A DNA stretch of 64,000 nucleotides from a virus: positions 19,540 through 83,539 of IMG/VR virus record IMGVR_UViG_3300038722_000002; one strand, 5' to 3'. Under the pieces are notes generated by a model. The model did not search any database, was not told where the DNA came from, and saw only the letters and a list, made by a program, of their open reading frames with translations. The position numbers were made by a program, and so were the translations under genes. Shown piece by piece: positions 12,802 to 32,474 of this stretch. Position 1 is the first letter of the stretch, and each line of letters begins with the position of its first letter.

Positions 12802-12821
12802 GGAGCTGCGTTAACAGCTCC
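12802..12821 (-). terminator. Rho-independent terminator after the major capsid gene
   Basis: On the minus strand a perfect 7-bp stem (GGAGCTG/CAGCTCC, six-base loop) lies 14 bases after the capsid stop and is followed by TTTATTATT. It would let the capsid gene be transcribed more than the neck genes downstream. Confidence 0.75.
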
Positions 12822-12834
12822 TAAACAACTAATA

Positions 12835-13938: not shown

Positions 13939-13957
13939 TTTATTATTAAATCCTTAT

Positions 13958-14440: not shown

Positions 14441-14455
14441 TATGTATAACTCCGA

Positions 14456-15157
14456 TTATTTAGATTGTGGGGCGAAGGCAGCAATGCGATCACTTAGAGA
14501 TTTCTCAATCTCCACTTCTGCTTCTACTGATTCACCAGCTTCTTCAGATAATTCTTTAACTAGGGGATTCTCAGGAGATACACTCTTCTGTGCTTTCTCT
14601 AGTTCAGCAGCAGCAACTTCACCAGCTTCAGCTAGGGCTACTTCGCCTTGTGCGATCAAAGCATCAAAGGCTTTTAGTAGAACGTCTTGTCCTTCTTCAA
14701 CAGAAGCTAGAACAACACTAAGCTCAGTCTCAAGTTCTTTCTCAAAAGAATACGCTGAAAGAGTTGCAGCAGCGTTAGCGGTTTTTAGTTGCTTCTCAAG
14801 GGCAACAATACGAGCCTCTTGTGCAGCCATGATTTCATCAGACATGTTTTTGTCATTTCCTTTAGTAATAGTAGGGGTTTCTACCTCAGCAGCCTCGTCA
14901 GTATTAACATCTGAGGTAGAGGATTTAGTACATTCTTCCATAGATTTATCTACTTCAGAAATATCGTAACCAACGCTCTCTAACAGGGAACGCTGTTTTA
15001 ATGAAAGAGTTTTACCTTCCTCTAACGACTTCAGGAGGATAGGGTTATTCATAAGCGAACATGCCCCACCTGCACTAACGTCTGTCAAAGCTAAATGCGC
15101 TTTGTCGAAGTCAAAACTAATCTTTGTTAGCTTTCTTTTCACTGTCTTACTCATCAA
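14456..15157 (-). CDS. Head scaffold protein
   Basis: A 233-residue, Glu/Ala-rich protein with a long predicted coiled coil (about 105-185) between the protease and decoration genes, which is where scaffold proteins are coded. Internal methionines at about residue 105 (NDKNMSDEIMAAQ) raise the possibility of a shorter scaffold form. It overlaps the protease end by 11 bases. Confidence 0.7.
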   Translation of the reverse strand: MMSKTVKRKLTKISFDFDKAHLALTDVSAGGACSLMNNPILLKSLEEGKTLSLKQRSLLESVGYDISEVDKSMEECTKSSTSDVNTDEAAEVETPTITKGNDKNMSDEIMAAQEARIVALEKQLKTANAAATLSAYSFEKELETELSVVLASVEEGQDVLLKAFDALIAQGEVALAEAGEVAAAELEKAQKSVSPENPLVKELSEEAGESVEAEVEIEKSLSDRIAAFAPQSK

Positions 15158-15854
15158 CTTCTTCCCAAGTAGCTACAGCACCAATTGATACACCCATAAA
15201 TTCTCCTTGCTTACGGAGATCCCATGCGTCTTTATTAACGTATTGAACTTCTACCAAAGGCATACCTTTCTTGACTTCAGTTTCTCCTATCATGCAATCA
15301 CACTCGTTAACCCAAGCGCGAACAGGAGTAAAATCTTCCGTCATTACCTTATGGAAATAATTACCTGACATGGTGCCTTCTTCACAAGCCTTGTTGAAGC
15401 TCTTAACCATGTCATAACACACTTCAGGAGACGCATACGTATCTCCAACCCCATCTACATCACCTATTGCAATGTATAGAGGTTCAATGGCAATCATTTT
15501 CTCATCTTCAAACTGCTTAACGATAGGCATCAAAGCCTCGCCTTTCTCACTGTCACCGAACTTAGATACGATTGATTCCAGAGCTTTAACTAATGTAGAA
15601 GTAGTTTGATACTCAGTGGTCGATACTACAACCTCAGCTTCATCACCTAGCTCTACATCTACACCATTCATTGTGTAAGACGTTCGGAACATTTCATAAT
15701 GCCCGTCTCCTACACTACCATCCCAGTAGACATAACTTTCATCGTAATCTGTTAGGTAGGGGTATCCGTGAGAGTTACTAAACTTCTTAGAGATTGCACG
15801 ATTGAGTAATCGGTGCTTATCCTTCTCAGTAGCCTTGTTCAAAATTGCTGTCAT
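15147..15854 (-). CDS. Prohead protease, XkdF-like serine protease
   Basis: A 235-residue protein with the XkdF protease pattern: a central GNYFHKVMTEDF (conserved His), then VRAWVNECDCMIGE, and the C-terminal MGVSIGAVATWEE (candidate nucleophile Ser). Such proteases clear the scaffold during prohead maturation. It lies between portal and scaffold genes. Confidence 0.82.
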   Translation of the reverse strand: MTAILNKATEKDKHRLLNRAISKKFSNSHGYPYLTDYDESYVYWDGSVGDGHYEMFRTSYTMNGVDVELGDEAEVVVSTTEYQTTSTLVKALESIVSKFGDSEKGEALMPIVKQFEDEKMIAIEPLYIAIGDVDGVGDTYASPEVCYDMVKSFNKACEEGTMSGNYFHKVMTEDFTPVRAWVNECDCMIGETEVKKGMPLVEVQYVNKDAWDLRKQGEFMGVSIGAVATWEEVDE

Positions 15855-15863
15855 ATAACCTTC

Positions 15864-17468
15864 TTATAAGTTCTTCTTAATAAACATTGGAGCACCTGTT
15901 GTTGTATTAACCACTACAAGCTCATCTTCGGTTTCATAATCCACCTCGAATGACTCCATTGATTTATTCTCAGAGTTTGTACTTGAGGCTGCACCACCTG
16001 ACTGTGTATCACCTGTACCACTAGAGCCTTTGGATTCCCCAGCGCGTGACTGAATATTCATCTCTTTACGTTCAACTAGGTGTTCTTCTAAACCGTCTAA
16101 AGACCATCCAGCCGATGTGTACAGATCAGCTATTGCGGCATCCGTAAGCAATTCCACAGAACCACCACGTTGCAATACCTTAGATAATGTATCGTGGTCT
16201 GGTTTACTAGGGTCATCTGGAACAAATACTGGCATCTGATCGTAAGGGAGGTAAATATCATTGGCAGCTAAGAGACGAGGAATGAGTTGTGTGTTAATCA
16301 CATCAACTTTCCAGTCGATACAGCGTCTAATGAAGTAATCATGTGTGGTCATCTGACTACCAGCTAAGGCGTTAGACCCATGACCATTCTGTCCGAGCAG
16401 CAAGAACCCTGTACCAAAAACATTGTAAATAGATTTACGTTTCTGGTTAATAATATCCTCTGTACGATACTGTGTACCGCCACCTTGAATACCTTTTAGT
16501 TCCAAGTCGTATAAATACTTCTTACTATATTCATCTACATCTGAAGTTAGAACTATGTGAGTTGACTTACCTGCCTGCAATCGACTTGCATCTGACTGTA
16601 GAGCGGCATACTCTTTAGCTTCTTCAGGATAACGTGTTGGATCGTTAGCTCGTTCTATCAGCTCCGAAGGAACCCTAACAACAACTAAACCACCGAAATC
16701 TTTACTGACACCAACCACTTCATAATGCTCAACCAACTTCTTCTCTGTCAATGCGTCATAACACATGTTCAACGGAGAGTTACCTTGAGGGTTATTAAAT
16801 GTTGGGTTGTGCCTGAAATGCAACATCTGTTGTGTACTAATAAAAGGATACTTATTATTATCTAAATAAGATGAACCCGATATATCAGTCAGCGGTATGT
16901 TGCTGCTGAAATCTGAGTACCCTTTTTCTCTTGCTTGTACAAGATTAGGTTTCTGTACGAAGCCCTTCAGGTCACGATTATGTTTATCCCACACCCAACC
17001 GTATAATGATTTAGGATCACGTGGAGCCAGTTTCTTGAGAGTGTAAGCACCTTTATATTCACCGTACTTAGCTTTCTCTAAAACTATATTCTCTATGGCA
17101 AACCCATAAGTCAAATCAGTGGCAGCGTTATTCATCGCCTCCATCCAAGTGCCGTAGCCCATGTTCCTAATACAATAGTTTAAGAACTTAGCCATTTGCT
17201 TACTTAGATTGGAATCTTTAGCAACTACCTGTCCTCCGTTCAACGCTGCTACCACTTGAATATTGGTAGTATCAACACTGTTACCAACAGCATCGTCTAA
17301 CATCATATTCTCATACGTGCAGAAGCGTCGAGGGAGCTTTAAGTCATCCTTTTTTAAATCTTGGATGAACCTAGAAGAAGTTACGATACCTGATTGACCT
17401 TTCTCGTTTGTTAGAGGCCGTGTCACCGTCTTAGGTGTACTTTCAGCCTTATCTAAACTTTCGGTCAT
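15864..17468 (-). CDS. Portal protein
   Basis: A 534-residue protein downstream of terL and upstream of the protease. It has portal-like segments NMMLDDAVGNSVDTTNIQ, ATDLTYGFAIENIVLE and RHNPTFNNPQGNSPL, followed by a helical stem region and RNVFGTGFLLLGQ-type residues. The C-terminal 60 residues are Ser/Gly-rich. It would form the dodecameric DNA channel at one capsid vertex. Confidence 0.88.
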   Translation of the reverse strand: MTESLDKAESTPKTVTRPLTNEKGQSGIVTSSRFIQDLKKDDLKLPRRFCTYENMMLDDAVGNSVDTTNIQVVAALNGGQVVAKDSNLSKQMAKFLNYCIRNMGYGTWMEAMNNAATDLTYGFAIENIVLEKAKYGEYKGAYTLKKLAPRDPKSLYGWVWDKHNRDLKGFVQKPNLVQAREKGYSDFSSNIPLTDISGSSYLDNNKYPFISTQQMLHFRHNPTFNNPQGNSPLNMCYDALTEKKLVEHYEVVGVSKDFGGLVVVRVPSELIERANDPTRYPEEAKEYAALQSDASRLQAGKSTHIVLTSDVDEYSKKYLYDLELKGIQGGGTQYRTEDIINQKRKSIYNVFGTGFLLLGQNGHGSNALAGSQMTTHDYFIRRCIDWKVDVINTQLIPRLLAANDIYLPYDQMPVFVPDDPSKPDHDTLSKVLQRGGSVELLTDAAIADLYTSAGWSLDGLEEHLVERKEMNIQSRAGESKGSSGTGDTQSGGAASSTNSENKSMESFEVDYETEDELVVVNTTTGAPMFIKKNL

Positions 17469-17476
17469 GTATCACC

Positions 17477-17800
17477 TTATTTCTTTGTGGTGGTCTTCTT
17501 AGAGGACTTAGGTTTATCTTTCTTCTTAGGAGTCTCTTTAACTTCCACCTCTTCAGTAGGAACAGGAGCCTCTTTCTCTTTAACAAACGTCAGGGTGTCT
17601 TCTAGCTCTCGGTACAATACTGCACGACCAGAATTACCTTTGAAGTTACGCATAGACGCATCAGCACGTTTGTTGTTATCAGCTATACGCCAACCATCAA
17701 CAATAGCCTCTTGTAAGCGTAGGAAGAACTCTTTCTCCCACTTCATACCTGTACCTTTGGTGTTGATCACCTTACGTTCTAGTTCTTTTTCTACGGTCAC
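17477..17800 (-). CDS. Unknown protein between terL and portal
   Basis: A 107-residue protein, with an N-terminal amphipathic helical part (EKEFFLRLQEAIVDGWRIA) and a Pro/Lys/Thr-rich tail from residue 75 (ETPKKKDKPKSSKKTTTKK). Its start sits next to the terL stop. No family recognised. The basic tail could bind nucleic acid or a packaging component. Confidence 0.75.
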   Translation of the reverse strand: MTVEKELERKVINTKGTGMKWEKEFFLRLQEAIVDGWRIADNNKRADASMRNFKGNSGRAVLYRELEDTLTFVKEKEAPVPTEEVEVKETPKKKDKPKSSKKTTTKK

Positions 17801-19423
17801 TTAGGACTCCTTGTATTTAGGTGTTTCTTGTAAGGTGGCTGTGTAACTGTCTATGACGTTAGCCGCTCTTGATTCGTTTTGTTGTTGATTTCTTGTTACT
17901 ATGTTTACTGTCCTACCTGAACACGCTGCGGCAAACGCCATACTCATAGCATCCACCCAATCATCTTTACGTGCGCTATTACTTTTCTTTTCAGGGTCAA
18001 AGGCTTCAAGTTCAGAATACAGGGCGTTCAGGGTAGGTTTATCAAACGTACTTTCAACTATGTGTACTAAACCTAATGAACACGCCTGACAGAAGGGTTG
18101 GAATGCAACCAACTTCTTATTAGGTGTATTATGTGCAGACTTATCTTCCTTAACCTTCAGTCCTTCCTCTTGGAAACGACCTAACGTATAGTAATGATCT
18201 GTCGCAGCACCACCTGTATCTTTTGTAAATACCCAAGTGGTGTCGTCGCCGTCATGGTGGGCTTGTCGGATAAGCATGGAGTCTCTAGCCCCTGCTAATT
18301 TCCGCATCCTCCCATGAACCCTTTCCTTAGCATCTAATTTAAGCTGCTGAACGTCTGTATAGTCGTCTAGGTAGTCACCTATTAACCAATACTCTCCATT
18401 CCTATCCTTAGCTATCTTAGGGGATGTGGCTGTGAAGTCTGGTTGGGCGTAAACCTCACTAGGTTCACTATACCCCTTATCCGTTCCTCTGTACCACTTG
18501 AGATCAGGAGGTATATCTGCCAAGGAGCTAACCTTCTCTCCTGCTTCTCCTCTTAACCAATGTCGTTGCCATAACGACTGACTACGTGGACGAGAGTACC
18601 AGTTACCCCACAATTGAGTATCACGTTCATGGTCTGGTAGGTTATTCAACTCCGATAGGTACACAGGGTTCGCTTTCAAACCTAATGGGTTATCGAATAT
18701 ATTAAAGAAGAAGTATGTGAACTTCTTCGGACGTATGTAAATCGTTTCATCCGAGTTAGGTATATCAACCCACAAACACTCAGGGTAGTTCTCTTGAAAC
18801 CACTCTTCCGATGGGCCGAAGATGAACTCACCTTCTTTTACTATGAACCACCTAATGTCCCCTCGTTTGTCGGGGTCTGGTGAACCATCCTCTTTCAAGT
18901 AGTATTCTACTAGAGGTAGGCACCAGCTATCAGGGTTAGGGTTGAGTGTCCCGACACAAAAGGAGTTCATATCTGCCTCTGAACGCAGACATGTCATCAA
19001 GAAGGTTACTTGGCTCTTAGAGAACTGATCGATTTCATCGAATCCTATAAGTGAGTAGCCTTTACCTCGGTGTGAACTCTTGTCGTCCTCGTAGAACATG
19101 TGACGATAGAATTGCTTTGCTCCCGAAGGCCACACCCAAGCCTTATCTGAAATCTTAGGTTGTGCGCCGAAGAGGGGATATTGGTTTTCACCTTTCTCCC
19201 ACAGGCCGTTAGCACCCATAATTTCATCGTATTGTCTTCGGAAGAATATCCCCCTGAAACTCTTATCCTCTGCAAAGCAGCAGGGGATCATACTAAGTAT
19301 TTCTGACTTGCCACCGAATCGTGCGCCACCCCATAACATGAAGTCCACATCACCGATCATACTGAAAGCTAACTCTTGATTACCTTCTTGGGGGCGTACA
19401 TCTTGCCACGTCTCATATCCCAT
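17801..19423 (-). CDS. terL: Terminase large subunit
   Basis: A 540-residue DNA packaging motor. Walker A is GGARFGGKS (residues 32-40), Walker B with the catalytic Glu is about 125-131 (SLIGFDE), and a motif-III-like stretch follows (MTCLRSEADMNSF). The C-terminal nuclease half has RGTDKGYS (about 313-320) and DDWVDAMSMAFAAA (about 495-508) with acidic residues. The ATG at 19423 has no good Shine-Dalgarno sequence and an in-frame stop lies just upstream, which is unusual for this operon. Confidence 0.92.
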   Translation of the reverse strand: MGYETWQDVRPQEGNQELAFSMIGDVDFMLWGGARFGGKSEILSMIPCCFAEDKSFRGIFFRRQYDEIMGANGLWEKGENQYPLFGAQPKISDKAWVWPSGAKQFYRHMFYEDDKSSHRGKGYSLIGFDEIDQFSKSQVTFLMTCLRSEADMNSFCVGTLNPNPDSWCLPLVEYYLKEDGSPDPDKRGDIRWFIVKEGEFIFGPSEEWFQENYPECLWVDIPNSDETIYIRPKKFTYFFFNIFDNPLGLKANPVYLSELNNLPDHERDTQLWGNWYSRPRSQSLWQRHWLRGEAGEKVSSLADIPPDLKWYRGTDKGYSEPSEVYAQPDFTATSPKIAKDRNGEYWLIGDYLDDYTDVQQLKLDAKERVHGRMRKLAGARDSMLIRQAHHDGDDTTWVFTKDTGGAATDHYYTLGRFQEEGLKVKEDKSAHNTPNKKLVAFQPFCQACSLGLVHIVESTFDKPTLNALYSELEAFDPEKKSNSARKDDWVDAMSMAFAAACSGRTVNIVTRNQQQNESRAANVIDSYTATLQETPKYKES

Positions 19424-19528
19424 GCTTTAAACCAACAGGACAATAACCTCTCACAGTACTGTCTATCTCAAAATGTTAATAGATATAGGACACTGCTTAG
19501 GTGAGAGATAGGCCATACAATATGACAA

Positions 19529-19770
19529 CTAAACAGTGTTACAGCAGAAGATGATGAACTCATCTCCACCACCATTCCAAGCTAAGGAGTGTGGATGATC
19601 AAGACCACGGTTACTTAGAACGCCTATAAGGAGGTTGTTACACATGATGTATAACGAATTTGTGTCAACGCTGCCACTTCGCCTGCACGTTGAAATCTCT
19701 GTCTCTCATCACTGTACACCACCTTGCTAGGAGAGGGAGCAGGGGGTGGTGTAGGGAGTAGTTTAGACAG
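19529..19770 (-). pseudogene. Frameshifted reading frame upstream of terL
   Basis: Two minus-strand frames abut in this otherwise gene-free gap (19424-19801). The first (19770-19624) reads LSKLLPTPPPAPSPSKVVY then SDERQRFQRAGEVAALTQIR and ends at TAG; the second, -1 relative to it (from 19645 to 19529), reads CNNLLIGVLSNRGLDHPHS then LAWNGGGDEFIIFCCNTV and ends at TAG. Together they look protein-like, but there is no ATG and no Shine-Dalgarno for the first part. It may be a decayed gene, or one read by frameshifting. Confidence 0.35.
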
Positions 19771-19801
19771 CCTCGTCTCTGAACTGAGGGTGTTTAGTCC
19801 T

Positions 19802-20386
19802 CTACTTCACGTCTGCCTTGGCTTTAGCCTTGGAAGCAGATTTGAAATCTAAGTTCTTATGTAATTGTTTATCTGTAAGAGGAGCTTTAGGCTTCATCTT
19901 CTTACCAGCAAAACTAGCTAGGCTCAACACGGGAGCTGATTGAGTATCACTGGTCTTCTTATTTTCCAACTCCTTCTCTTTCTGGTCTATCTTAGCCAGT
20001 GTGTTAGAGTTGAAGAATCTGACTACTTCGAGTTTTGAAGTCTCTTTAACTTCTTTACTGTTGAGGAACCAGACCAGTGTATCAAGCGCCTCTGCCGAGT
20101 GGCGTAGAATCTTCGCTTTATACGCATCAGGAGCCTCCACCTTGCCCTCTAGGATCTTTCTATGTGTCTCTAGTAGTTGTATAGCTATTTTACGCTTAGC
20201 TGACTCTGAGCCTTTCCTGAGCAACGTCACCATGACATCAGCAGCCTTTAGGCTATACTTGTCCGTCACAGCGTCCCAGTTGTTAATAGCCCTACTCTTG
20301 TTCTTTGAACCTTTCTTACGTCCCGCTGAGATACGGGGGTCTCCTTTTACAAAGCGTCCATTGTTAGGAGCTTTCTTCTTAGTCAT
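19802..20386 (-). CDS. Terminase small subunit-like protein (DUF5681-like)
   Basis: A 194-residue protein, read from the second of two adjacent ATGs because AGGAG lies five bases before it. The N-terminus NGRFVKGDPRISAGRKKGSKNK has the DUF5681 pattern (G-F-KG-S-N-GRPKG-KN) seen in small terminase-like proteins. The rest is helical and Lys-rich. Placement before terL supports a DNA recognition role in packaging. Confidence 0.65.
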   Translation of the reverse strand: MTKKKAPNNGRFVKGDPRISAGRKKGSKNKSRAINNWDAVTDKYSLKAADVMVTLLRKGSESAKRKIAIQLLETHRKILEGKVEAPDAYKAKILRHSAEALDTLVWFLNSKEVKETSKLEVVRFFNSNTLAKIDQKEKELENKKTSDTQSAPVLSLASFAGKKMKPKAPLTDKQLHKNLDFKSASKAKAKADVK

Positions 20387-20404
20387 CATTGCTCCTATTA
20401 GGAT

Positions 20405-20560
20405 CTACTCTTCTGAATCTAAGTTAATATCATCAGGAAATTCTTCTGCACCCAAGACAGCGATATGACATTCTTCACAAACTTCGTCGTCTATCTGGAC
20501 AACTTGCTTAAATGGTAATCTAATATCCAAGGAGCATTCACGACAATGTTTGTGTGACAT
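20405..20560 (-). CDS. Small zinc-ribbon protein
   Basis: A 51-residue protein with two C-x2-C/H pairs (HCRECS at 5-10 and CEECH at 33-37) and an acidic C-terminus. AGAGGTG lies five bases before its ATG. It is the first gene of the minus-strand late operon after the promoter at 20665-20695. The function is unknown; a regulatory role is possible. Confidence 0.7.
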   Translation of the reverse strand: MSHKHCRECSLDIRLPFKQVVQIDDEVCEECHIAVLGAEEFPDDINLDSEE

Positions 20561-20664
20561 TATCACCTCTGTGAGTGTTAGTTGTTATTTAGGGGTTGAC
20601 ACGTCCGAAAGGACATGAGATACTTCTGTTTACTGGGGAGTTTATTTCCTCCCTCTATAATATG

Positions 20665-20695
20665 TATTCTGCTACTAACTTTTGCCATTTGTCAA
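20665..20695 (-). promoter_or_regulatory. Candidate phage promoter for the late operon
   Basis: The minus strand has TTGACA, a 17-base spacer and GCAGAATA. The same arrangement recurs at 21034-21064 and 51603-51633 on the plus strand, and all three face operons. This copy faces the terminase-to-tail operon. Confidence 0.65.
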
Positions 20696-20732
20696 GTAAT
20701 TTTTAACATTTTTTACAAAAAAAGGGAAATTA

Positions 20733-21044
20733 ATGAAAAATATGAAGAATTTACCTCCTATTCCACATGAATCTGAGGTCAAACAGGCGTTTTATGGACA
20801 CATCCAAGAGACTCTATCCAGTGGGTCGTTGAATATTCCTGATGTTGGACTGCAAGAAATCACATCATTTAGCGGAGGACACATCGGTTATAACAGCCCT
20901 ATTAGCATCCTAAAGAGTGAAAATACAGACCTTCTCCTCTATTCTGTCGGGGGTATCGGCACACTAGATGTCTATAATAACTACTCTGAAAGGCAAGAAA
21001 TGAATGTATTTGTCCGTAAAGCTAAGAAAGTGCTTGACAAATAG
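20733..21044 (+). CDS. Unknown small protein
   Basis: A 103-residue protein beginning MKNMKNLPPIPHESEVKQAF. It has no recognised family. AAAGGGAAA precedes the ATG. It lies between the divergent promoters at 20.69 and 21.03 kb, and the second promoter overlaps its stop codon. The stretch from 20561 to 20732 holds only the late promoter and small hairpins. Confidence 0.6.
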   Translation: MKNMKNLPPIPHESEVKQAFYGHIQETLSSGSLNIPDVGLQEITSFSGGHIGYNSPISILKSENTDLLLYSVGGIGTLDVYNNYSERQEMNVFVRKAKKVLDK

Positions 21045-21064
21045 ATTAAATTAGTAGCAGAATA
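21034..21064 (+). promoter_or_regulatory. Candidate phage promoter
   Basis: TTGACA, 17 bases, GCAGAATA, overlapping the end of the preceding gene. It shares nearly the whole element, including TTAGTA before GCAGAATA, with the late-operon copy. It would drive the structured leader and the HNH gene. Confidence 0.62.
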
Positions 21065-21620
21065 GGAATTAGAGTAATACAGAAGGTGTGGTTGTAAGAC
21101 TACACCTGTACAAAATACATCACAATATACATTCCACCTGAGTGTGTATTCTAATGTATTTATACATAGAGGCGTTTCGGCAAGGTTTCCCTCGCGTGGT
21201 AGCAAAAGCAAAACCCGACATATTGGTATATATGGAGCTGTAATGGATGACAGCGTTGAAGTGTAGTATCAAGAGTATACAATAACAAATCCTAGCTCTG
21301 ACGTCCTCTGTCAACTGGGTAGGTGGAAATGGAACAAGGCCCGATCACTAAACATACCGAATACCCTAAGATAGTCGTAGGTATGTTTACTCACTAGGGT
21401 TAAGTAGTGGGAGAATGCGTGTACCAAGGGGCAGGTCACGATAACGCAGAACCGATGACGTTATAGAGTAAACTCTTTATTTGGAATAAGTAATAATGAA
21501 AGTGACCAGTTAGGTCATATTACTTATATTGTACTTTACTAGGTACAATGGTTATATCTTTCAAGCAGTTATATATTATTAGAATATAATTGTTAGGATA
21601 GACCACCGAATAGAGAGGGC
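21065..21620 (+). ncRNA. Structured non-coding leader
   Basis: About 560 bases without a credible gene follow the promoter. Several strong hairpins are visible: a perfect 10-bp stem TAAACATACC/GGTATGTTTA (21349-21358 with 21380-21389), a 9-bp stem TAAGTAATA/TATTACTTA (21487-21495 with 21518-21526) enclosing TGACC/GGTCA, and AGGTGT/ACACCT near 21083-21106. The loop of the first hairpin (ACCCTA) can also pair with AGGGT downstream, a possible pseudoknot. It may be a small RNA or a 5' leader; the boundaries are guesses. Confidence 0.4.
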
Positions 21621-21654
21621 CTAGTTGCATCTGAAACTTGAGAATGGAGAGAAT

Positions 21655-22458
21655 ATGGGTGATTTACTACTGAAATTTAATGTACTAAAAGAGATAGAAG
21701 GGAGTGATGAAAACTCCTTCCAGCAGTTCGCTAATGATATGGCTTTGAAATACGGTATATTAGGAACTACTAATACAGTGATAGATTCGCTGTGGACTAA
21801 GAAGCGGCTGAACGTGAAAGACTACTTGCCTCCTAAGAAGAAGAAACGTAAGAAGCAGGAGAGACGTGGCTACCACTACAGTCCTAACGCAGACCTAGAG
21901 TGGTTATCCTTGAGACGTGATGTGATTAAGGTATTAGGAACTCGGTGTCTTTGCTGTAGAAAGAAACCAAAGAAGACTAAAGACCTACACGTTGACCACG
22001 TTCTACCAAGGAGTAGACATCCACACCTAACGTATGACATAATGAACCTTCAAGTGTTGTGTAAGACGTGTAACTACGATAAGTCAGATATACACGCAAC
22101 GGATTACAGGACAGACGAACAACGAGAGAGGTTATTGATTATGAAGGGTGTTAGAGGTAATTGTGTTGTGAGTGAGGATATGGTAGATGATGTGTATGAT
22201 GTACTAGGGGATATCCCCACTGAATACCTACAGGAGCTACACAGCTTACTTGAGAAGACGAAGAACAGTAAAGTAATGCTAGAGGTAGAGAATGATAAAC
22301 TATGCTCTGTAGTGTACCTGATAAGCTCTAAGGGCAGACATGTCGCCCACTGTAGTAAGAATAAGATAGTTGTCCGTGAGTATCGCAACTGGAGCAACGA
22401 CAACCGAGAGTTTAAGAATATAACCAAGGAGTTGTTGATTAAATGCAGGAAAGATTAG
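21655..22458 (+). CDS. HNH homing endonuclease
   Basis: A 267-residue protein with a basic linker (PPKKKKRKKQERRG, about 75-90) and a central HNH domain: CLCC (about 103-106), HVDHVLPRSRHP (catalytic His region, about 118-129), NLQVLCKTCNYDKSD (about 139-153). The Cys pairs bind zinc. The ATG at 21655 has GGAG five bases upstream and is preferred to a TTG at 21625. It sits among non-coding structured sequence, suggesting a mobile insertion. Confidence 0.82.
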   Translation: MGDLLLKFNVLKEIEGSDENSFQQFANDMALKYGILGTTNTVIDSLWTKKRLNVKDYLPPKKKKRKKQERRGYHYSPNADLEWLSLRRDVIKVLGTRCLCCRKKPKKTKDLHVDHVLPRSRHPHLTYDIMNLQVLCKTCNYDKSDIHATDYRTDEQRERLLIMKGVRGNCVVSEDMVDDVYDVLGDIPTEYLQELHSLLEKTKNSKVMLEVENDKLCSVVYLISSKGRHVAHCSKNKIVVREYRNWSNDNREFKNITKELLIKCRKD

Positions 22459-22661
22459 AAGAGTTTATAAATAAGTTAAAAGAAAGGTTGACGGCAGAAT
22501 GGGGAGACACTATAATCGTCACCAAGATACAGGCAAGAGGATATGGCCCTACAATGAATGTGATACAAATTAAGAATAAAGGACTTGCAGAAACATACGG
22601 AGTGTGGGAGACTAGAACAACTGGAGGGGGTAGCTTAGTGCAGTGGTGCTACTTCACATAA
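22443..22661 (+). CDS. Unknown small protein
   Basis: A 72-residue protein overlapping the end of the HNH gene by 16 bases. It begins with an amphipathic helix (ERLEEFINKLKERLTAEW) and ends with GGSLVQWCYF. No family recognised. The overlap suggests co-translation with the endonuclease. Confidence 0.6.
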   Translation: MQERLEEFINKLKERLTAEWGDTIIVTKIQARGYGPTMNVIQIKNKGLAETYGVWETRTTGGGSLVQWCYFT

Positions 22662-22668
22662 GATTAAC

Positions 22669-22707
22669 GGGTAGCTAGGAATTTGGAGGTTAAAATCCTC
22701 CCTGCCC
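22669..22707 (+). other. Acceptor-plus-T-arm-like hairpin
   Basis: GGGTAG (22669-22674) pairs with CTGCCC (22702-22707), enclosing a perfect 5-bp stem GGAGG/CCTCC with the seven-base loop TTAAAAT directly stacked on it. This is the geometry of a tRNA acceptor stem plus T arm, with D and anticodon arms missing. It may be a tRNA remnant or a processing signal. Confidence 0.35.
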
Positions 22708-22911
22708 TAACCTACGAGCTGTGTGACTACAGCTAGTACAGCCCTGTACGATGAGAAGTAAGTTGTGGTGACTTGCATGGGAGGCCGCGTAAGGTGGGCT
22801 GAAAACACCTCAGTCTTGTACAATGACTTAAAACTTAGGGGTGGAGCTTCGGTGTAGAAATCTTTGAGAGGTGTATCCAGTTGCTAGTCTGGTTAAAATT
22901 AGCACGAATTA

Positions 22912-23032
22912 CGGGGTGTAGCTTAAAAGGTAGAGCAGTTGGGCCAGCCGCCGCTAACTAGTATCGCGCAAAGGCGTTGACTAGTATCGGAAAGGGCGCT
23001 AATCAGTACGGTCTCGATAACCGTCACCCCGT
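22912..23032 (+). tRNA. Degenerate or interrupted tRNA-like gene
   Basis: CGGGGTG (22912-22918) pairs perfectly with CACCCCG (23025-23031). U8/A9 and a canonical D arm (GCTT-AAAAGGTA-GAGC) follow, and a perfect T arm (ACGGT-CTCGATA-ACCGT, 23008-23024) abuts the acceptor strand. Between D and T arms there are about 70 bases instead of 21-22, made largely of three tandem 22-23-base repeats (starting 22952, 22975, 22997). No normal anticodon loop is evident, and no CCA is encoded. It may be a decayed tRNA or a tRNA-like RNA. Confidence 0.45.
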
Positions 23033-23051
23033 CTTAGTTAAGGAGAGATGT

Positions 23052-23327
23052 GTGTATTTTAAAAAGAAACCAGACAGGCGTGTAGGGGATCTGTATTGGG
23101 AACAGTTATCTATGTGGGATAGATCACCTACTGATGCAGTTGACATGTACAGCGAAGATGGGTTTCACTTCGAGCTTAGGTTAATTACAGAGGTGAGGAG
23201 TGCTACGGGTTGGAGTAATAGGTTTGTGATGTGGGATGAGTTAACATCTGAGCAGATAGAGGGGCTTGTACCTCAAGAAGGACACAACTGGTCACGGATA
23301 ATGGGGAACGTAGAGGACTTTAGTTAA
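23052..23327 (+). CDS. Unknown small protein, GTG start
   Basis: The frame is open from within the tRNA-like sequence, but AGGAGAG just before GTG 23052 marks a better start, giving 91 residues (YFKKKPDRRVGDLYWEQL onward). No family recognised. It is the first gene of a run of small plus-strand genes. Confidence 0.55.
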   Translation: MYFKKKPDRRVGDLYWEQLSMWDRSPTDAVDMYSEDGFHFELRLITEVRSATGWSNRFVMWDELTSEQIEGLVPQEGHNWSRIMGNVEDFS

Positions 23328-23552
23328 ATGACAAAACTGATAAAACCACACGAGGCGTGGAAAGAGGTTGTCCACACCGCTAGGGATAATATCGATAACC
23401 TTAACGACTTCAAGGAAGATACAGCAATCGTATGGGCTGACAAGGAGTTGCAGAACTATAAGAGGGCTATGATGGCCTTGGCTACAAGGAGTAACTCACA
23501 GGATGATCTATCCTTGATAGACACAATGGTAAGACGGGCGGAGGCACAATGA
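23328..23552 (+). CDS. Unknown small helical protein
   Basis: A 74-residue, largely helical protein (HEAWKEVVHTARDNIDNLND). It starts right after the stop of the gene before and overlaps the next by four bases (ATGA). Function unknown. Confidence 0.6.
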   Translation: MTKLIKPHEAWKEVVHTARDNIDNLNDFKEDTAIVWADKELQNYKRAMMALATRSNSQDDLSLIDTMVRRAEAQ

Positions 23553-23725
23553 GCGCACTAAGAACTAAAGAAGTAGTCCCCCTAGTAGAAGAAGCTCACA
23601 ACCGAGGACTATCACTATCAAGGTCTAATGACCTAGATACACATTCCTACTTACTAATTGGACTCTTTGAAATAATCTCTGAGATGAGGGATGAGATCGA
23701 TTTACTACAGGAGAAATCAAAATGA
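23549..23725 (+). CDS. Unknown small protein
   Basis: A 58-residue frame linked to its neighbours by ATGA overlaps at both ends. It contains THSYLLIGLFEIISEMRDEI, an amphipathic helix. Function unknown; the chained overlaps support translation. Confidence 0.55.
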   Translation: MSALRTKEVVPLVEEAHNRGLSLSRSNDLDTHSYLLIGLFEIISEMRDEIDLLQEKSK

Positions 23726-23916
23726 CATATTTCACAATGAGCACATTCAGATCGAAGGAAGACCTGTACAAAGCCAAGGCAGAGTACCTAGAGAGCGCCC
23801 TCAAGCAGATCGTTGATGCACACCAGCTTGATGACTCCGTGTGGAAGGAGGATGATTTGTGGTGTACTGATCAATCGGAAGGGGAGTATCCCTTAGTGTG
23901 GGGTGAGTTGAAATGA
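23722..23916 (+). CDS. Unknown small protein
   Basis: A 64-residue protein, GGAG-preceded and overlapping the previous gene by four bases. It has a helical EDLYKAKAEYLESALKQIVD segment resembling a short coiled coil. Function unknown. Confidence 0.6.
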   Translation: MTYFTMSTFRSKEDLYKAKAEYLESALKQIVDAHQLDDSVWKEDDLWCTDQSEGEYPLVWGELK

Positions 23917-23996
23917 GTAGTGACAATACACATAAGGTGCTTGCAAGAGAGACACCAACTATGTATAATGACCCCTTGGGTTGTTTAACTAAATGA
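23913..23996 (+). CDS. Possible micro-protein
   Basis: A 27-residue frame overlapping the previous stop by four bases (ATGA). It ends with PTMYNDPLGCLTK. Short, and supported mainly by the overlap pattern. Confidence 0.38.
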   Translation: MSSDNTHKVLARETPTMYNDPLGCLTK

Positions 23997-23997
23997 C

Positions 23998-24034
23998 GGC
24001 AAAGTAAAAAGTTTCCGAGGCTTCCCTCTTTGCC
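23998..24034 (+). promoter_or_regulatory. Hairpin before the nucleotide-metabolism genes
   Basis: GGCAAAG (23998-24004) pairs perfectly with CTTTGCC (24028-24034) around 23 bases. There is no T run, so it is not a normal terminator. It sits 25 bases before the gene at 24060 and may be an RNA processing or regulatory element. Confidence 0.4.
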
Positions 24035-24059
24035 AGAAGACTACACATAAGGAGAACAA

Positions 24060-24215
24060 ATGATATCAGAAGTAACAATCTCAACTGAGAAACTAGAATA
24101 TTTATATCAACGAGATCAATTACTATCAGCACTAGAAGCAGCAGGTGTAGATAATTGGGAAGGATATGACTGTGTAATAGAATCACTACTACAACAATGG
24201 AGAGAAGAAGTTTGA
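24060..24215 (+). CDS. Unknown small acidic protein
   Basis: A 51-residue protein with AAGGAG six bases before ATG. It is helical (TEKLEYLYQRDQLLSALEAAG) and ends VIESLLQQWREEV. Its TGA overlaps the TTG start of the redoxin gene. Function unknown. Confidence 0.6.
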   Translation: MISEVTISTEKLEYLYQRDQLLSALEAAGVDNWEGYDCVIESLLQQWREEV

Positions 24216-24487
24216 TTGAAGAACAACAAGATATGTTTAAGAAAGAAGTAACAGTGTTCACAAGTGGTTGGTGTACTAACTGTAAGCCCGTCAAGCACTA
24301 TCTAAGCCTCTTAGAACAAGAAGGGGTGGTAAGTGTAGAGTATGCCGATGTAGACGCTCTAACGGCCTCTCAGCAGTCTCTAAAAGAACAACACAATATA
24401 CTGAGTATTCCAGTAGTCGTCTATGGAGATAAGACACTGATTGGAAGTAAGACTAAGCAAGAGATTATGACTTTTCTGGAGGTTTAA
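24212..24487 (+). CDS. Thioredoxin-fold protein, glutaredoxin/NrdH-like
   Basis: A protein of about 91 residues with a CTNC redox motif in VTVFTSGWCTNCKPVKHYL and a cis-Pro loop (SIPVVVYGD), the glutaredoxin/thioredoxin pattern. The TTG start at 24212 overlaps the previous stop (TTGA) and has GGAGAG upstream; ATG 24197 lacks a ribosome binding site. Its stop overlaps nrdA, so it likely re-reduces the ribonucleotide reductase. Confidence 0.82.
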   Translation: MIEEQQDMFKKEVTVFTSGWCTNCKPVKHYLSLLEQEGVVSVEYADVDALTASQQSLKEQHNILSIPVVVYGDKTLIGSKTKQEIMTFLEV

Positions 24488-26280
24488 TGACTATAGAAGA
24501 ATATAACGGTATCACTATTGATTATTCAAGAGATGCCGACCTTCCCGAACAAGGCAAGGTGATGTTGACAAAGAAAGGGTTTTACAAGAAAGACTATGAG
24601 GACTCCCCACAACAGGGATTCGCCAGAGCAGCTAACTGTTTCAGCTTCGGGGATAAAGCATTTGCACAACGAATGTACGATTACATGAGTAAGTTGTGGT
24701 TTACCAACGCTAGTCCCGTACTATCTAACGCAATAGACTTCACATGGCCTGAGAATCTAAGCTTTGACGAGGCTGCTGAGTGGTTGGAAGGTAATATTAC
24801 ACCTGATGGACTACCTATCTCCTGCTTCCTTCCAGATATTCCTGACACTAAGGAGGGGCTTGTATCGACGGCAGCGGAGGTTAAGTGGTTATCTATGATG
24901 GGTGGTGGTGTAGGTGTGTATGCAGGAATGCGCTCACCTGACGAGAAGTCCACTGGTGTAATGGCACACATGAAAGAATATGATGCTATCGCCTTAGCCT
25001 ATAAGCAGACTGAATCACGGCGGGGGAGTATCGCAGCATATTTAGATATAGATCATCCTGAGATCATATCCTTCCTAGAGATGCGTAATCCTGTAGGAGG
25101 GGAGATTAATAAGAAATGCTTCAACCTTAACAATGGTGTCAATATTCCAGACTCCTTCATGGAAGCCGTAATAGCAGGAGATACTTACCCACTTATTGAT
25201 CCTAAACATGGGGACACAGGTCGTGAGTTAGATGCGCGTGAAGTATGGGAGAAGCTGCTGGAGCTGCGTAAGGAGACAGGTGAGCCGTATATCATGTGGA
25301 AGGATACAGTTAACCGTATGCTACCTGAGTGGATCACACGTCCTTTGTATAAGGTTAAGCAAAGTAATTTATGTAGTGAAATAACCTTAATGACATCTAA
25401 GAAGCGAACAGCGGTATGTTGCCTTAGTTCTCTGAATCTTGAGAAATATGAAGAGTGGAAAGACACAACTATCGTGGAAGACTTGATTCGTTACTTAGAT
25501 AATGTTTTAGAGTATTTTATCCGCTTGGCACCACCTGAACTACATAGGGCTGTGAACTCAGCTAAGAAAGAGAGAGCTATAGGACTAGGTACACTAGGGT
25601 TTCATGCTTATTTACAAAGCAAGATGATCTCGTATCAGTCGGGTGGATTGAACAGTGCATCGCATGAGAATCACAGGTTATTTAACCTTATCAAGACGCG
25701 AGCAATTGCAGGGTCTAGGCAGTTAGCCAAGGAACGCGGAGAGGCAAGGGACGTAGAGGGTTCAGGTATGCGTAATAGTCATCTATTAGCCGTAGCACCT
25801 AACGCAAGCTCTAGTAGTATTGCAGGGACAAGTCCGAGTATCGAGCTATGGTCAGCCAACGCATTTAATGCTCAAGGACGTGCGGGTAGTTTCCTGATCA
25901 AGAATAAGTATCTTGAAAAATACCTAGAAGGTGTAGGTAAGAACACCAAGGAGGTATGGAGTAGCATTATCGCCAATGAAGGAAGTGTGTACCACTTAGA
26001 TTTCATCCCAGATGATGTTAAAGAAGTGTTTGCTACGTCCAAAGAAGTTGATCCTATGTGGGTTATCGAACACGCAGGTATACGGGCACCATTAGTATGC
26101 CAAGCTGTTAGTAATAATTTAACGGTGCCTTCTAATATCACCAAACAACGGATGTCGGACATCCATATGAAGGCTTGGCGTAAAGGGGTTAAGACGTTAT
26201 ATTATTGCCGTAGTGAAGAAGCAATGAAGGCTTCCGTAGGTAGTAGTTATGAAAGTGAATGTTTAAGTTGTGAAGGGTAA
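24487..26280 (+). CDS. nrdA: Ribonucleoside-diphosphate reductase large subunit, class I
   Basis: A 597-residue catalytic subunit that reduces ribonucleotides to deoxyribonucleotides. Active-site residues are visible: Cys113 (ISCFLPD), Asn294/Cys296/Glu298 in NLCSEI, and Cys311-312 (AVCCLSSLN), with the C-terminal shuttle pair in ECLSCEG. It lacks the N-terminal ATP-cone of E. coli NrdA (761 residues), so activity may not be dATP-inhibited. It lies between the redoxin and nrdB. Confidence 0.93.
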   Translation: MTIEEYNGITIDYSRDADLPEQGKVMLTKKGFYKKDYEDSPQQGFARAANCFSFGDKAFAQRMYDYMSKLWFTNASPVLSNAIDFTWPENLSFDEAAEWLEGNITPDGLPISCFLPDIPDTKEGLVSTAAEVKWLSMMGGGVGVYAGMRSPDEKSTGVMAHMKEYDAIALAYKQTESRRGSIAAYLDIDHPEIISFLEMRNPVGGEINKKCFNLNNGVNIPDSFMEAVIAGDTYPLIDPKHGDTGRELDAREVWEKLLELRKETGEPYIMWKDTVNRMLPEWITRPLYKVKQSNLCSEITLMTSKKRTAVCCLSSLNLEKYEEWKDTTIVEDLIRYLDNVLEYFIRLAPPELHRAVNSAKKERAIGLGTLGFHAYLQSKMISYQSGGLNSASHENHRLFNLIKTRAIAGSRQLAKERGEARDVEGSGMRNSHLLAVAPNASSSSIAGTSPSIELWSANAFNAQGRAGSFLIKNKYLEKYLEGVGKNTKEVWSSIIANEGSVYHLDFIPDDVKEVFATSKEVDPMWVIEHAGIRAPLVCQAVSNNLTVPSNITKQRMSDIHMKAWRKGVKTLYYCRSEEAMKASVGSSYESECLSCEG

Positions 26281-26290
26281 GGAGAATTAA

Positions 26291-27301
26291 TTGTCAGTAT
26301 TTGAAAGATCGAAGGCGTATAAGCCTTTTAAATTCCCTAAGTTGGTTGAAGAGGAGAAGAAGCATAGGATTGATATGTATTGGCATGAGAATCAGACAGA
26401 CTTATCTGATGATTTACGTCAATATCACAGCAAAGAGGGTTTGAAGACGGAGAATGTCAGCCATGAGCGACACAAACTCCTACTAGAAAAACTACTCCCC
26501 TTGTTTACAGCATCCGATACAAGCGTCTCGGAGGGGTATGCAAAACTACTACCTCACGCAAATAATAATGAGATACGTGGGTTACTATTCACGCAAGGCG
26601 CAAGAGAGGTGACACATTATCGTGGGTACGCTCTAGCTAATGAGACTTTCGGGTTTCCTGAGTCTAGCTGGGAAGAGTTCCATGAGTACAAGGAGATGCA
26701 AGATAAAGTGGATCTCATGTTAGCCGACGTGGGGGATTTATCTAACAAGCTTAACTGGTGTAAGCAATTGGCGGTTGTATTACTAGGTGAAGGTATATCA
26801 CTGTTTGGTAGCTTCTGTCCTCTCTTGAACCTGAAACGATCAGGGCTATGTGTAGGTTTTAATGATATTAACCAGTGGAGCCTCATAGATGAAGCTCACC
26901 ACATCAGTAATAATATCTACATTCTACGACAAGCATGGTTGGAGTTATCTAACGAGGAAAGAGATGAACTATGTACTTTCATTCTTGAATGTTCTCAAAG
27001 GTATGTTGATGCAGAACACCGTTTCATTGAGTTGATCTTTGAAGATGGGCCACTGGAAGACTTAACTGAGGCGCAACTGAAAGGGTACATTACGTATTTA
27101 GGTAAGCATTGGTTACGTGAGCTAGGGTTGATCGGATCGTTGGATGTCCCTGAGAATACGATTGAATGGATGGACTGGATGCTATCAGGTGTTAAGCATG
27201 ATAACTTCTTTGAGAAGAAGGTTACATCCTACTCTCATAATGGACTACAAGGCGATGTCGATTATACAAAGTATCTAGGAGATGAACTAAATGACTATTA
27301 A
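26291..27301 (+). CDS. nrdB: Ribonucleoside-diphosphate reductase small subunit
   Basis: A 336-residue ferritin-like subunit, starting at TTG 26291 with AAGGAG upstream. Iron ligands fit class I: Asp in QTDLSDD (about 37), Glu106 and His109 with the radical Tyr113 (EVTHYRGY), then a later Glu in LLGEGISLFGS and Glu/His in DEAHH. It follows nrdA by ten bases and supplies the tyrosyl radical. Confidence 0.92.
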   Translation: MSVFERSKAYKPFKFPKLVEEEKKHRIDMYWHENQTDLSDDLRQYHSKEGLKTENVSHERHKLLLEKLLPLFTASDTSVSEGYAKLLPHANNNEIRGLLFTQGAREVTHYRGYALANETFGFPESSWEEFHEYKEMQDKVDLMLADVGDLSNKLNWCKQLAVVLLGEGISLFGSFCPLLNLKRSGLCVGFNDINQWSLIDEAHHISNNIYILRQAWLELSNEERDELCTFILECSQRYVDAEHRFIELIFEDGPLEDLTEAQLKGYITYLGKHWLRELGLIGSLDVPENTIEWMDWMLSGVKHDNFFEKKVTSYSHNGLQGDVDYTKYLGDELNDY

Positions 27302-27536
27302 GATTACACAGAAAGGCTCTACTGTTTCCTTATCAGGAGACATTAAAGTTATGAAACAAGTGATAGCTGCTTCAAGTCACATTCAAGGTGATGTATTTAA
27401 CGGGTGTGAGCTGCATTATGACGATCCACTACACCCTGATAATTGTTGCGGAACATTGGAGCAAATAATCTCAGATGTAGATGTGTCAGATAACAAAGTG
27501 GTTGTACATTGCGACTTTAAACCTACAGGGGAGTAA
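27291..27536 (+). CDS. Unknown small protein
   Basis: An 81-residue, strand-rich protein overlapping the end of nrdB by 11 bases. It contains NGCELHYDDPLHPDNCCG. No family recognised; co-expression with the reductase is likely. Confidence 0.65.
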   Translation: MTIKITQKGSTVSLSGDIKVMKQVIAASSHIQGDVFNGCELHYDDPLHPDNCCGTLEQIISDVDVSDNKVVVHCDFKPTGE

Positions 27537-27545
27537 CGAACAAGG

Positions 27546-28022
27546 ATGACATATAAGTGCTTTAACTTTGAGATCGAAGAATTAGTAAGTCAAGCAACTT
27601 ACAATTCATTTATTGACATGTTTGGTGTTGATATAGGGGAAGAGTTCATGTGGAGGTTGTTTGATGACAACTTCCTTGAAGCACTCGACGCCTTACGGGA
27701 TAAATATGGCCCTATTACAATCAACGATTGGTGTTGGGGAGGAAGTTATGACCAATCAGGACTAAGGACAACTTTCTCGCAGTATTACAGCAAAGGGAGT
27801 ATGCACAGTTGGGCATGTGCTGTGGATATGAAGTTTGGTAATTTCACAGCACCAGACATACAAAAACTATTAGAGGAGTTGACGGTAGACGATGAATATG
27901 GCGATATTATCCTTGAAGGTATTACAAGGGTGGAACGTGGCACACCTACATGGACTCATGTTGACAATAAAGATGTGTCTAAGGATACATTAGAAGAAGG
28001 TTTGTATTTCTTTAATCCATAA
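27546..28022 (+). CDS. Peptidase M15-like protein, candidate cell-wall peptidase
   Basis: A 158-residue protein with features of M15 D-Ala-D-Ala peptidases: SMHSWACAVDMKF (His87 and Asp94) and TPTWTHVD (His138), the zinc ligand pattern H-x6-D ... W-x-H. N-terminal residues have no domain recognised. It could be an endolysin or a virion peptidase. It is unusual that it sits in the nucleotide operon between nrdB and phoH. Confidence 0.68.
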   Translation: MTYKCFNFEIEELVSQATYNSFIDMFGVDIGEEFMWRLFDDNFLEALDALRDKYGPITINDWCWGGSYDQSGLRTTFSQYYSKGSMHSWACAVDMKFGNFTAPDIQKLLEELTVDDEYGDIILEGITRVERGTPTWTHVDNKDVSKDTLEEGLYFFNP

Positions 28023-29864: not shown

Positions 29865-30176
29865 ATGCAGTATGTAAGGGGTCAGAAGGTGAGAGTCTTA
29901 TCTGACGGGAAGATTACACTAGGAGAGATAGCATATCATCAACCCACTTGTCTCACATATAAAGTGAACATTGATGGTATGCTCGTCTCAGTCAACTACG
30001 AGGACATAATGAACGATCAGGATGAATCTGTAGCACTAGGTGTCTTGTGGGCACAAGCAAGGGACGAAGGGTGGCAAGGAATGATGTGTGATGCACAATT
30101 AGCTAAATTATTCCTAGACAAATGCGAAAAGGCTGGTATCATCACGCACACATCAAACAAAGGAGAAGAGAATTGA
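29865..30176 (+). CDS. Unknown small protein
   Basis: A 103-residue protein. The N-terminal part resembles a small SH3-like beta barrel (VRGQKVRVLSDGKITLGEIAY), followed by a helical tail. Its TGA overlaps a TTG start for the membrane gene that follows. Function unknown. Confidence 0.62.
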   Translation: MQYVRGQKVRVLSDGKITLGEIAYHQPTCLTYKVNIDGMLVSVNYEDIMNDQDESVALGVLWAQARDEGWQGMMCDAQLAKLFLDKCEKAGIITHTSNKGEEN

Positions 30177-30379
30177 TCTACATGTTACTAGGAGCTATAT
30201 ACTTCATCTTCAACATCATCTCATTATGTACATTCTACAAAGGTATATGTCAAGGAGATAATAAACTCAAGGTCTTAATCTTAACATTCGGTAGTGTGTT
30301 CTACGGTGTAGATAAACTCGTATTGGCATATTATGGGATTTCAGATTTCATTAAGAAAAAGCTTGCAAAGTCAGATTAG
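30173..30379 (+). CDS. Small membrane protein, TTG start
   Basis: A 68-residue protein with two hydrophobic segments (MLLGAIYFIFNIISLCTFYKG and VLILTFGSVFYGVDKLVLAYYG, split here by a polar loop). TTG 30173 overlaps the previous stop (TTGA) and has GGAGAAG upstream. A terminator follows directly. The membrane location is inferred from hydrophobicity. Confidence 0.6.
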   Translation: MIYMLLGAIYFIFNIISLCTFYKGICQGDNKLKVLILTFGSVFYGVDKLVLAYYGISDFIKKKLAKSD

Positions 30380-30388
30380 TCTATATAT

Positions 30389-30433
30389 AATCCCCGCATT
30401 GATTGTCGAAAGGCAGTTGTGCGGGGATTTTTA
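30389..30433 (+). terminator. Rho-independent terminator
   Basis: AATCCCCGCA (30389-30398) pairs with TGCGGGGATT (30420-30429), followed by TTTTTATT. It ends the plus operon that began near 21-23 kb, although further plus-strand genes follow and may need their own promoter. Confidence 0.85.
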
Positions 30434-30459
30434 TTGTCTGTAATATGAGGAGAGAATGA

Positions 30460-30801
30460 ATGGAATATAAGAATACACAACATCTACAAGAGATGGATTT
30501 AAAGTGCTTTATGTTGAAATTGGGATATAAGCTATACTATTTCAGAAAATCATTTGAGAATGTACATGTGTCACATTCTATGGCACCAGCGTTATCCTAT
30601 AATACAGCAGTGATGTTATATAATACATGTACTTCGTGGTTGTTCGATGATACACTGCAAGTCAAATACCCGTTCACCAAGGAGGTGTTTGCAGAAGCTA
30701 GGTACGAGCGTGTATTCTCCCGTATTTACTTGCAAGGTTGTAAAAACGGTGAGATCAAATGCACTAAACACCAACTGAGGTTCAACTATGATCAAGTATG
30801 A
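30460..30801 (+). CDS. Unknown protein
   Basis: A 113-residue protein, GGAGAGAAT-type ribosome binding site before ATG. It contains a helical LQEMDLKCFMLKLGYKLYYF region. No family recognised. It overlaps the next gene by 14 bases. Confidence 0.6.
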   Translation: MEYKNTQHLQEMDLKCFMLKLGYKLYYFRKSFENVHVSHSMAPALSYNTAVMLYNTCTSWLFDDTLQVKYPFTKEVFAEARYERVFSRIYLQGCKNGEIKCTKHQLRFNYDQV

Positions 30802-30982
30802 CCCTGTAGGCATAGAAACAGTCCGTCAATGTGCGGTGGACAGTTTAAATGAGTTCCACATGTACCGAGAAAACTACACAGAAGATACCATGTGTTCTGA
30901 ATCGTGGTTGGACTTGGGTGGTAAGTTTGTAGCCGATGGTTACTTCTATTTATTTATGAAACAGGATGCTACTTATGAATAA
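30788..30982 (+). CDS. Unknown small protein
   Basis: A 64-residue protein starting MIKYDPVGIETVRQCAVDSL. It overlaps both neighbours by a few bases. Function unknown. Confidence 0.58.
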   Translation: MIKYDPVGIETVRQCAVDSLNEFHMYRENYTEDTMCSESWLDLGGKFVADGYFYLFMKQDATYE

Positions 30983-31157
30983 GAAACAATATGTACTATA
31001 CCTTATCGACAACGCAGTAACGGATTTATTGTATTATGACCGCGAAGAGGATGCTCAGTTGGGTGTAGGGGAGATTGAACGTATGGTGAAAGAAGGTGAG
31101 ATTACTTTAGACGAGATGTACAACGCATTTATTCGCTCACTAGGAGAACAAGTATGA
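30975..31157 (+). CDS. Unknown small protein
   Basis: A 60-residue protein; ATG 30975 is chosen over ATG 30966 because AGGA lies at a good distance. It is acidic and helical (EEDAQLGVGEIERMVKEGEI). It overlaps the ligase start by four bases (ATGA). Confidence 0.58.
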   Translation: MNKKQYVLYLIDNAVTDLLYYDREEDAQLGVGEIERMVKEGEITLDEMYNAFIRSLGEQV

Positions 31158-32302: not shown

Positions 32303-32474
32303 CCTAATAGAAGTCAAAGGAAGGGGTTGTTATTGTCGTATATGTGACTACATTATCCCAATAGGAACAGTAGCTCTTATGGTGGAAGGACGTAAAGAAT
32401 GTTTGCGTGTATGTAAGGAGTGTGTTACTTTAGCGGCTATTGAAATTTCAAACAACGAGGAGACGGATGAATGA
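32286..32474 (+). CDS. Small zinc-finger protein
   Basis: Starting at GTG 32286 (or TTG 32295), within the end of the ligase gene, this frame gives about 62 residues with two Cys pairs: CYCRIC and VCKEC. It is a small zinc ribbon of unknown function. Its end overlaps the next gene. Confidence 0.55.
   Translation: MNHLSNLIEVKGRGCYCRICDYIIPIGTVALMVEGRKECLRVCKECVTLAAIEISNNEETDE

Follow-up and report, generated by a model that had tools for sequence, protein, structure and literature searches.

A short non-coding stretch of a phage genome raises the question of whether the phage has lost a tRNA gene or keeps a tRNA-shaped RNA, since the acceptor, D and T arms look like those of a tRNA and the region where the anticodon arm should stand is greatly expanded. 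The window, by which we mean the whole 64,000-nucleotide stretch of DNA that was analysed, is part of an 83,539-base IMG/VR record. Its ribonucleotide reductase has 64.5% identity to that of a Rheinheimera Barbavirus and its terminase 50.7% identity to that of Pseudoalteromonas phage H101. The element lies between the genes for the terminase large subunit (TerL, 17801..19423, minus strand) and the ribonucleotide reductase alpha subunit (RNR, 24487..26280, plus strand), which we used as synteny anchors.

The exact tRNA frame spans positions 22912..23031 of the plus strand (120 nt), as defined by a strict frame scan and a cloverleaf fold, with an eighth acceptor pair possible through 22911A-23032T; the observation that had been made from the letters of the DNA is thereby confirmed, coordinates included. 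In tRNA numbering, the element begins with C1GGGGTG7 (22912..22918), the acceptor 5' strand, all seven bases of which form Watson-Crick pairs with 23025-23031. T8, A9, the D arm G10CTT13-AAAAGGTA-G22AGC25, with four of four pairs, and A26 occupy 22919..22937 (pair probability 0.95-0.97), and the D arm carries A14, G18G19 and A21. The anticodon stem 5' strand GTTGG (22938..22942) pairs with CTAAT (22999-23003) at a probability of 0.77-0.92, all five pairs being formed and two of them being G-U. These strands enclose a 56-nt expanded anticodon loop (22943..22998), which is predicted to form an extended hairpin without a 7-nt U33 loop. The 3' strand CTAAT and the 4-nt variable loop CAGT (together 22999..23007) are followed by the T arm ACGGT-CTCGATA-ACCGT (23008..23024), which has 5/5 pairs and keeps T55, C56 and A58, with C54 and the pair T53-A61 being atypical. 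The acceptor 3' strand CACCCCG and a T at position 73 (23025..23032) are then followed by CTT. In total, all 16 frame pairs and the 8 invariant bases that we tested are intact, in agreement with the near-perfect acceptor, D and T arms described in the first-pass annotation, while the distance from base 26 to the T stem is 70 nt versus 22 in a class I tRNA.

The best predicted fold of 22911-23032 is a cloverleaf (-44.2 kcal/mol, z = -2.18; an equally good fold in 3 of 200 shuffles), which was also found within 461 nt of context. Its frame pairs have probabilities of 0.72-1.0, its junction spacings of 2, 1 and 4 nt are canonical, and its anticodon arm is a long interrupted hairpin. To satisfy the strict frame, a sequence must have a paired acceptor and T8, carry A14, GG and A21 in its D arm and show T55-C56-A58 in its T arm. 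The window contains a single match, and none turned up in 1020 order-1 Markov windows; although these criteria were picked after the element had been seen, they are the standard identity features of tRNAs. It could still be argued that the stems were assembled by chance in a non-coding gap, given that looser frame scans yield about 2 false frames per shuffled genome and that generic tRNA models score the element poorly (10.6 bits with a local phage tRNA model, the 3' end being misplaced). The strict-frame count, together with the synteny and the words shared with real tRNAs that are described below, makes this the least credible of the explanations considered here.

The anticodon region had been described in the first-pass annotation as about 70 bases built from three repeats of 22-23 bases. 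The length and two of the repeats hold, and the third is weak. Unit 1 (GCCGCTAACTAGTATCGCGCAAAG) occupies 22950..22973 and unit 2 (GCGTTGACTAGTATCGGAAAGG) 22974..22995. Aligned, these two units agree at 18 of 22 bases, and a 15-base comparison of copies 1 and 2 gives 13/15. Unit 3 (GCGCTAATCAGTACGGTCTCG, 22996..23016) aligns to unit 1 at 16/19 with 7 gaps and to unit 2 at 13/21, and it does take in the 5' strand of the T stem, as had been claimed. The triple at 22950/22973/22995 scores 12, 11 and 10 of 15, a result reached by none of 400 dinucleotide shuffles, and Tandem Repeats Finder at score 30 reported no array at the element. Repeats 1 and 2 are clear and the third copy is marginal. Both clear units contain the self-complementary ACTAGT and would pair with each other as RNA. 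The stretch of unit 3 corresponds to the anticodon 3' strand, the variable loop and the T-stem 5' strand, a composition that makes slippage plausible, and we infer that this segment was duplicated in tandem in that way.

A further question is whether such an RNA could act in translation. No single internal excision of the kinds tested recreates a 7-nt loop with U33 and a purine at 37 on a 5-bp stem, and the loop ends, read by eye, gave no U33 from excisions within the loop either. CCA is encoded by 347 of the 586 tRNAs that we fetched, and the 3' end of the element is T-CTT, not N-CCA. Having neither a restorable U33 anticodon loop nor an encoded CCA, the element cannot decode. ARAGORN reported no tRNA at the element by default or with -i, and an intron form, whose loop is implausible, appeared only once the score was cut to 80%; Rfam at the gathering score had no match of any kind there. 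The identity of a tmRNA was dropped, as neither ARAGORN -m nor Rfam found one at the element. For a Y RNA-like tRNA mimic of the YrlA kind, Rfam gave no match at the element, and Pfam showed no Ro60 among the 20 larger ORFs searched.

The absence of an anticodon loop bears directly on the proposal of the first-pass annotation that the RNA may be bait for tRNA-cutting defences, a class that includes anticodon nucleases. Such defences are known to be countered by phage tRNAs that have an altered anticodon stem-loop and take over decoding (PMC11455837), which lends the proposal some background; those tRNAs, however, still decode and resist cleavage, and anticodon nucleases recognise the anticodon stem-loop, which the element lacks. 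With no anticodon loop for nucleases to cut, the proposal is weakened, and we consider it highly improbable.

Expanded anticodon regions occur in many other phage tRNAs. When IMG/VR was searched with a pattern in which 45-75 nt separate the consensus of a D arm from that of a T loop, at least 120 stretches matched. Among the matches listed, 87 of 121 show no more than one mismatch in the acceptor and T stems, and 77 of these 87 are missed by ARAGORN. Once the insertion is taken out, a normal anticodon arm is regained in 22 of the 73 distinct cases, compared with 1.3% in shuffles. Such restorable arms indicate that an expanded anticodon region alone does not mean decay. In one set that recurs, insertions of 40-48 nt lie near positions 28-30; they usually begin with TA and contain a hairpin and ACAGCAA. 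Examples are found at L218:53-173, L231:471-583, L258:957-1077 (minus strand), L261:2477-2591, L292:478-593 (minus strand), L295:14658-14774, L310:8744-8858 and L244:474-587. The insertion lies in the anticodon stem, mostly as a hairpin followed by ACAGCAA, and its removal leaves a perfect anticodon arm; the genes cover Gly, Asn, Lys, Ile, Thr and other tRNAs, and several occur per genome in L272, L289 and L297. These insertions look like an undescribed family of short tRNA introns, or mini-introns, judging from their sequences; we found no description of such short introns in open-access full texts, and in the loci scanned no Rfam family besides tRNA matches the expanded genes.

A second set has CTCATGGTGAAGGACCAAA in common within the anticodon arm. 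A module of the form CTCAYGGYGAAGGRCCAAA..GC..GGG, whose GGY/RCC pairs covary by eye, occupies this arm in frames that are mostly intact and have no anticodon (L225:2375-2473, L209:2548-2647, L236:7508-7607, L246:11690-11788 and L268:3594-3693 on the minus strand; also L257:11337-11436, L262:136-235, L264:8642-8740, L277:2560-2661 and L281:4654-4752). Two tRNA-Thr(UGU)-like genes with an encoded CCA (L263:2339-2438 and, on the minus strand, L285:2451-2551) each carry within the anticodon loop (TTGTTGA...GAACAA) an inserted hairpin of some 27 nt, which is similar in the two. At L204:4972-5120 and L315:2025-2173, a complete tRNA is nested in the anticodon loop of another whose acceptor, D and T arms are intact, and a permuted tmRNA (RF04321, L218:4623-4908) is encoded on a phage contig that also has a large array of tRNAs.

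The insertion-bearing tRNAs provide the argument for reading the element as a functional tRNA with a removable intron, since many of them regain the 5-bp stem and the 7-nt U33 loop, and those of L218, L231, L261, L292, L295 and L310 resemble it in their intact frame, their insertion between the D and T arms and their similar total length. Unlike these six, which regain the U33 loop and mostly carry the hairpin and ACAGCAA, the element fails the same excision test, and neither ACAGCAA nor CTCATGGTGAAGGACCAAA occurs in it. Its insert of about 49 nt is far below the size of a group I intron, and no group I core or Rfam intron matches there. The splicing interpretation was dropped on the unsolved excision test, and we regard it as very improbable. 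A tmRNA also has tRNA-like ends and a longer helix in place of the anticodon arm, whereas the element is 120 nt long, has a normal D stem and gives no tmRNA match. In engineered tRNA-scaffold RNAs, a structured RNA replaces the anticodon arm of a tRNA frame; these molecules are man-made, and the likeness is limited to design.

The origin of the element is best traced by comparing the window with a related phage contig, IMGVR_UViG_3300037575_000021 (hereafter G026). The structural genes of the two, TerL included, are collinear (window 504-19423 versus G026 7950-27813), and about 26 tRNA matches form an array in G026 at 29916-35179, at the same place between TerL and RNR where the window has the element. 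The RNR genes lie beyond the array in G026 and beyond the tRNA-like region in the window. In G026 and many other relatives, the tRNA arrays lie upstream of TerL, and ordinary tRNAs are present in the relatives picked by RNR, DNA polymerase and terminase. In the window, no tRNA was accepted by ARAGORN or by Rfam at the gathering score.

The element has a neighbour. A second, more degenerate tRNA-like sequence on the plus strand (22627..22709), with the T arm GGAGG-TTAAAAT-CCTCC and without an anticodon arm, scores 22.2 bits in the Rfam tRNA search (cut-off 29), the sole match in the whole record, and 15.5 bits with the phage tRNA model. Two exact words are the longest that 22600-23060 has in common with the G026 array. 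One, CGGGGTGTAGCTTA, forms the first 14 nt of the element and the 5' end of the G026 tRNA-Gln; the other, AGGTTAAAATCCT, is a 13-nt T-arm word of the second tRNA-like and of the G026 tRNA-Cys. These two G026 genes are adjacent, in the same order and strand sense as in the window, and the T loop TTAAAAT occurs in 1 of the 586 distinct tRNAs examined, which is that same tRNA-Cys. Two words of at least 13 nt were obtained in 1 of 1000 shuffles and in none of 550 other window segments. Frame and synteny, together with these two words that recur exactly in neighbouring tRNA genes of G026, support a tRNA origin. For the gap between TerL and RNR, the best reading is a tRNA array that has eroded and is inverted relative to TerL, the orientation of the element with respect to that gene being opposite to that in G026.

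Descent from tRNA-Gln specifically is the weaker part of this assignment, since the link rests on 14 nt and the T arms differ, and it is put forward as probable. The G026 tRNA-Gln(UUG) (G026:31831-31907) shares with the element those first 14 nt, the acceptor core GGGGTG/CACCCC and a location between TerL and RNR; it differs in having an ordinary 7-nt anticodon loop (TTTTGAT), an encoded CCA, another T arm and the opposite strand relative to TerL. Degenerate array tRNAs, such as the one at G026:34519-34626, are like the element in keeping D and T arms beside tRNA genes with the anticodon arm expanded or lost, but the acceptor stem of that example does not match, whereas the frame of the element is wholly paired.

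The roughly 200 non-coding nucleotides between the two tRNA-likes (22710-22911) hold no recognisable element and may hold further relics. A third tRNA-like at about 22748-22828, seen by eye, was dropped for its 9-nt T loop and its lack of any model match. An R1 match of 17.7 bits on the minus strand (3871-3937) lies within an ORF of the structural region and is probably due to chance. Elsewhere, also on the minus strand, the window encodes an RlaP-like nucleotidyltransferase (49990-50964; PF10127, RNA repair pathway; phrog_388), and nothing links it to action on tRNA-like RNA. A 725-aa ORF (41816-43993, minus strand) matches nicotinamide phosphoribosyltransferase in its C-terminal part and HNH endonuclease and endonuclease VII families at residues 12-214, and is apparently a fusion or a mobile nuclease in frame. 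A pentapeptide-repeat ORF holds a tandem array at 41162-41317 with a 15-nt unit and a 75-nt higher period.

The main rival to loss is that the phage retains the element as a tRNA-shaped non-coding RNA, with the acceptor, D and T arms as a stable frame; RNase P would cut its 5' end, the ends would be protected and the extended hairpin would replace the anticodon arm. Alternatively, the retained form may act as punctuation for RNA processing within the leader of the next gene, a small ORF with a probable GTG start assigned at 23052 (23052..23327, plus strand), for whose protein no relatives were found. A promoter-like TTGACG-17-TATAAT (22488..22516, 11/12 consensus positions), one of three such sites on the plus strand of the window, could drive this leader, and the Shine-Dalgarno-like AAGGAG of the gene (23040..23045) starts 8 nt past the element. 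With these two sites on either side, a role in processing the leader is conceivable, RNA processing being a use that the first-pass annotation had also proposed. Matches to the start region (23033-23069) in G046 and G032 were dropped, that in G046 being a shared Shine-Dalgarno stretch. Retention gains further weight from the cloverleaf as the dominant predicted fold and from how common intact-frame tRNA-likes with expanded anticodon regions are among the listed IMG/VR matches. On the other hand, the z-score is modest, the neighbouring tRNA-like is clearly degenerate, the repeats resemble unconstrained duplication, and the insert has no homologue in any collection searched: neither an exact D-arm pattern in IMG/VR nor searches of phages (matches of at most 27 nt), plasmids and GTDB genomes revealed a homologue of the element.

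Retention is also supported by the frame, which is wholly intact beside repeats that now differ by about 15-40%. In a simulation of neutral decay at 0.10-0.13 divergence per site per copy, the frame stayed intact in 1.5-4% of runs, a figure that assumes repeats identical at birth and neutral divergence and refers to one sequence only. An intact frame beside diverged repeats mildly favours constraint or recent change. Since the repeats may not have been identical at birth and a single sequence is concerned, a relic remains our leading reading, and retention, as its main rival, seems to us less likely. The more specific version, a natural tRNA-scaffold RNA in which the anticodon arm has become an extended hairpin that serves some purpose other than translation (a processing mark or a stabilised regulatory hairpin), and which belongs to a broader set of phage tRNA-likes with remodelled anticodon arms, appears to us unlikely.

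We therefore favour, at a probability of roughly 0.58, the reading that the element is what is left of a tRNA-Gln gene that stood in a tRNA array, now eroded and inverted. The array at the TerL-RNR gap would have eroded and been inverted, and a tandem duplication of the segment of about 22 nt would have rewritten the anticodon half of the gene. A transcript, if made, should fold like a tRNA whose anticodon arm is too long; RNase P and the CCA enzyme might act on it, but it could not decode, and the element presumably has no present function. The earlier idea that slippage destroyed a tRNA thus survives in its origin, which is supported, and in its mechanism, which is plausible. An ordinary tRNA-Gln does stand at the syntenic place in G026, but a clear decay product the element is not, all its frame pairs being intact despite the divergence of the repeats. 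The opposite orientation relative to TerL also speaks against the relic reading, as does the lack of an intermediate form in any close relative. It is ordinary in its origin, the erosion of a tRNA array, and unusual in the clean survival of its frame.

Beyond this locus, standard finders miss many phage tRNA genes because of insertions in the anticodon region, and phage tRNA counts, as well as arguments on codon supply, may be off by the missed genes. Taken as a relic, the element illustrates the course of erosion in a phage tRNA array, in which decoding is lost first and the outer frame last; if it is retained, it would be a natural counterpart of the engineered tRNA scaffold.
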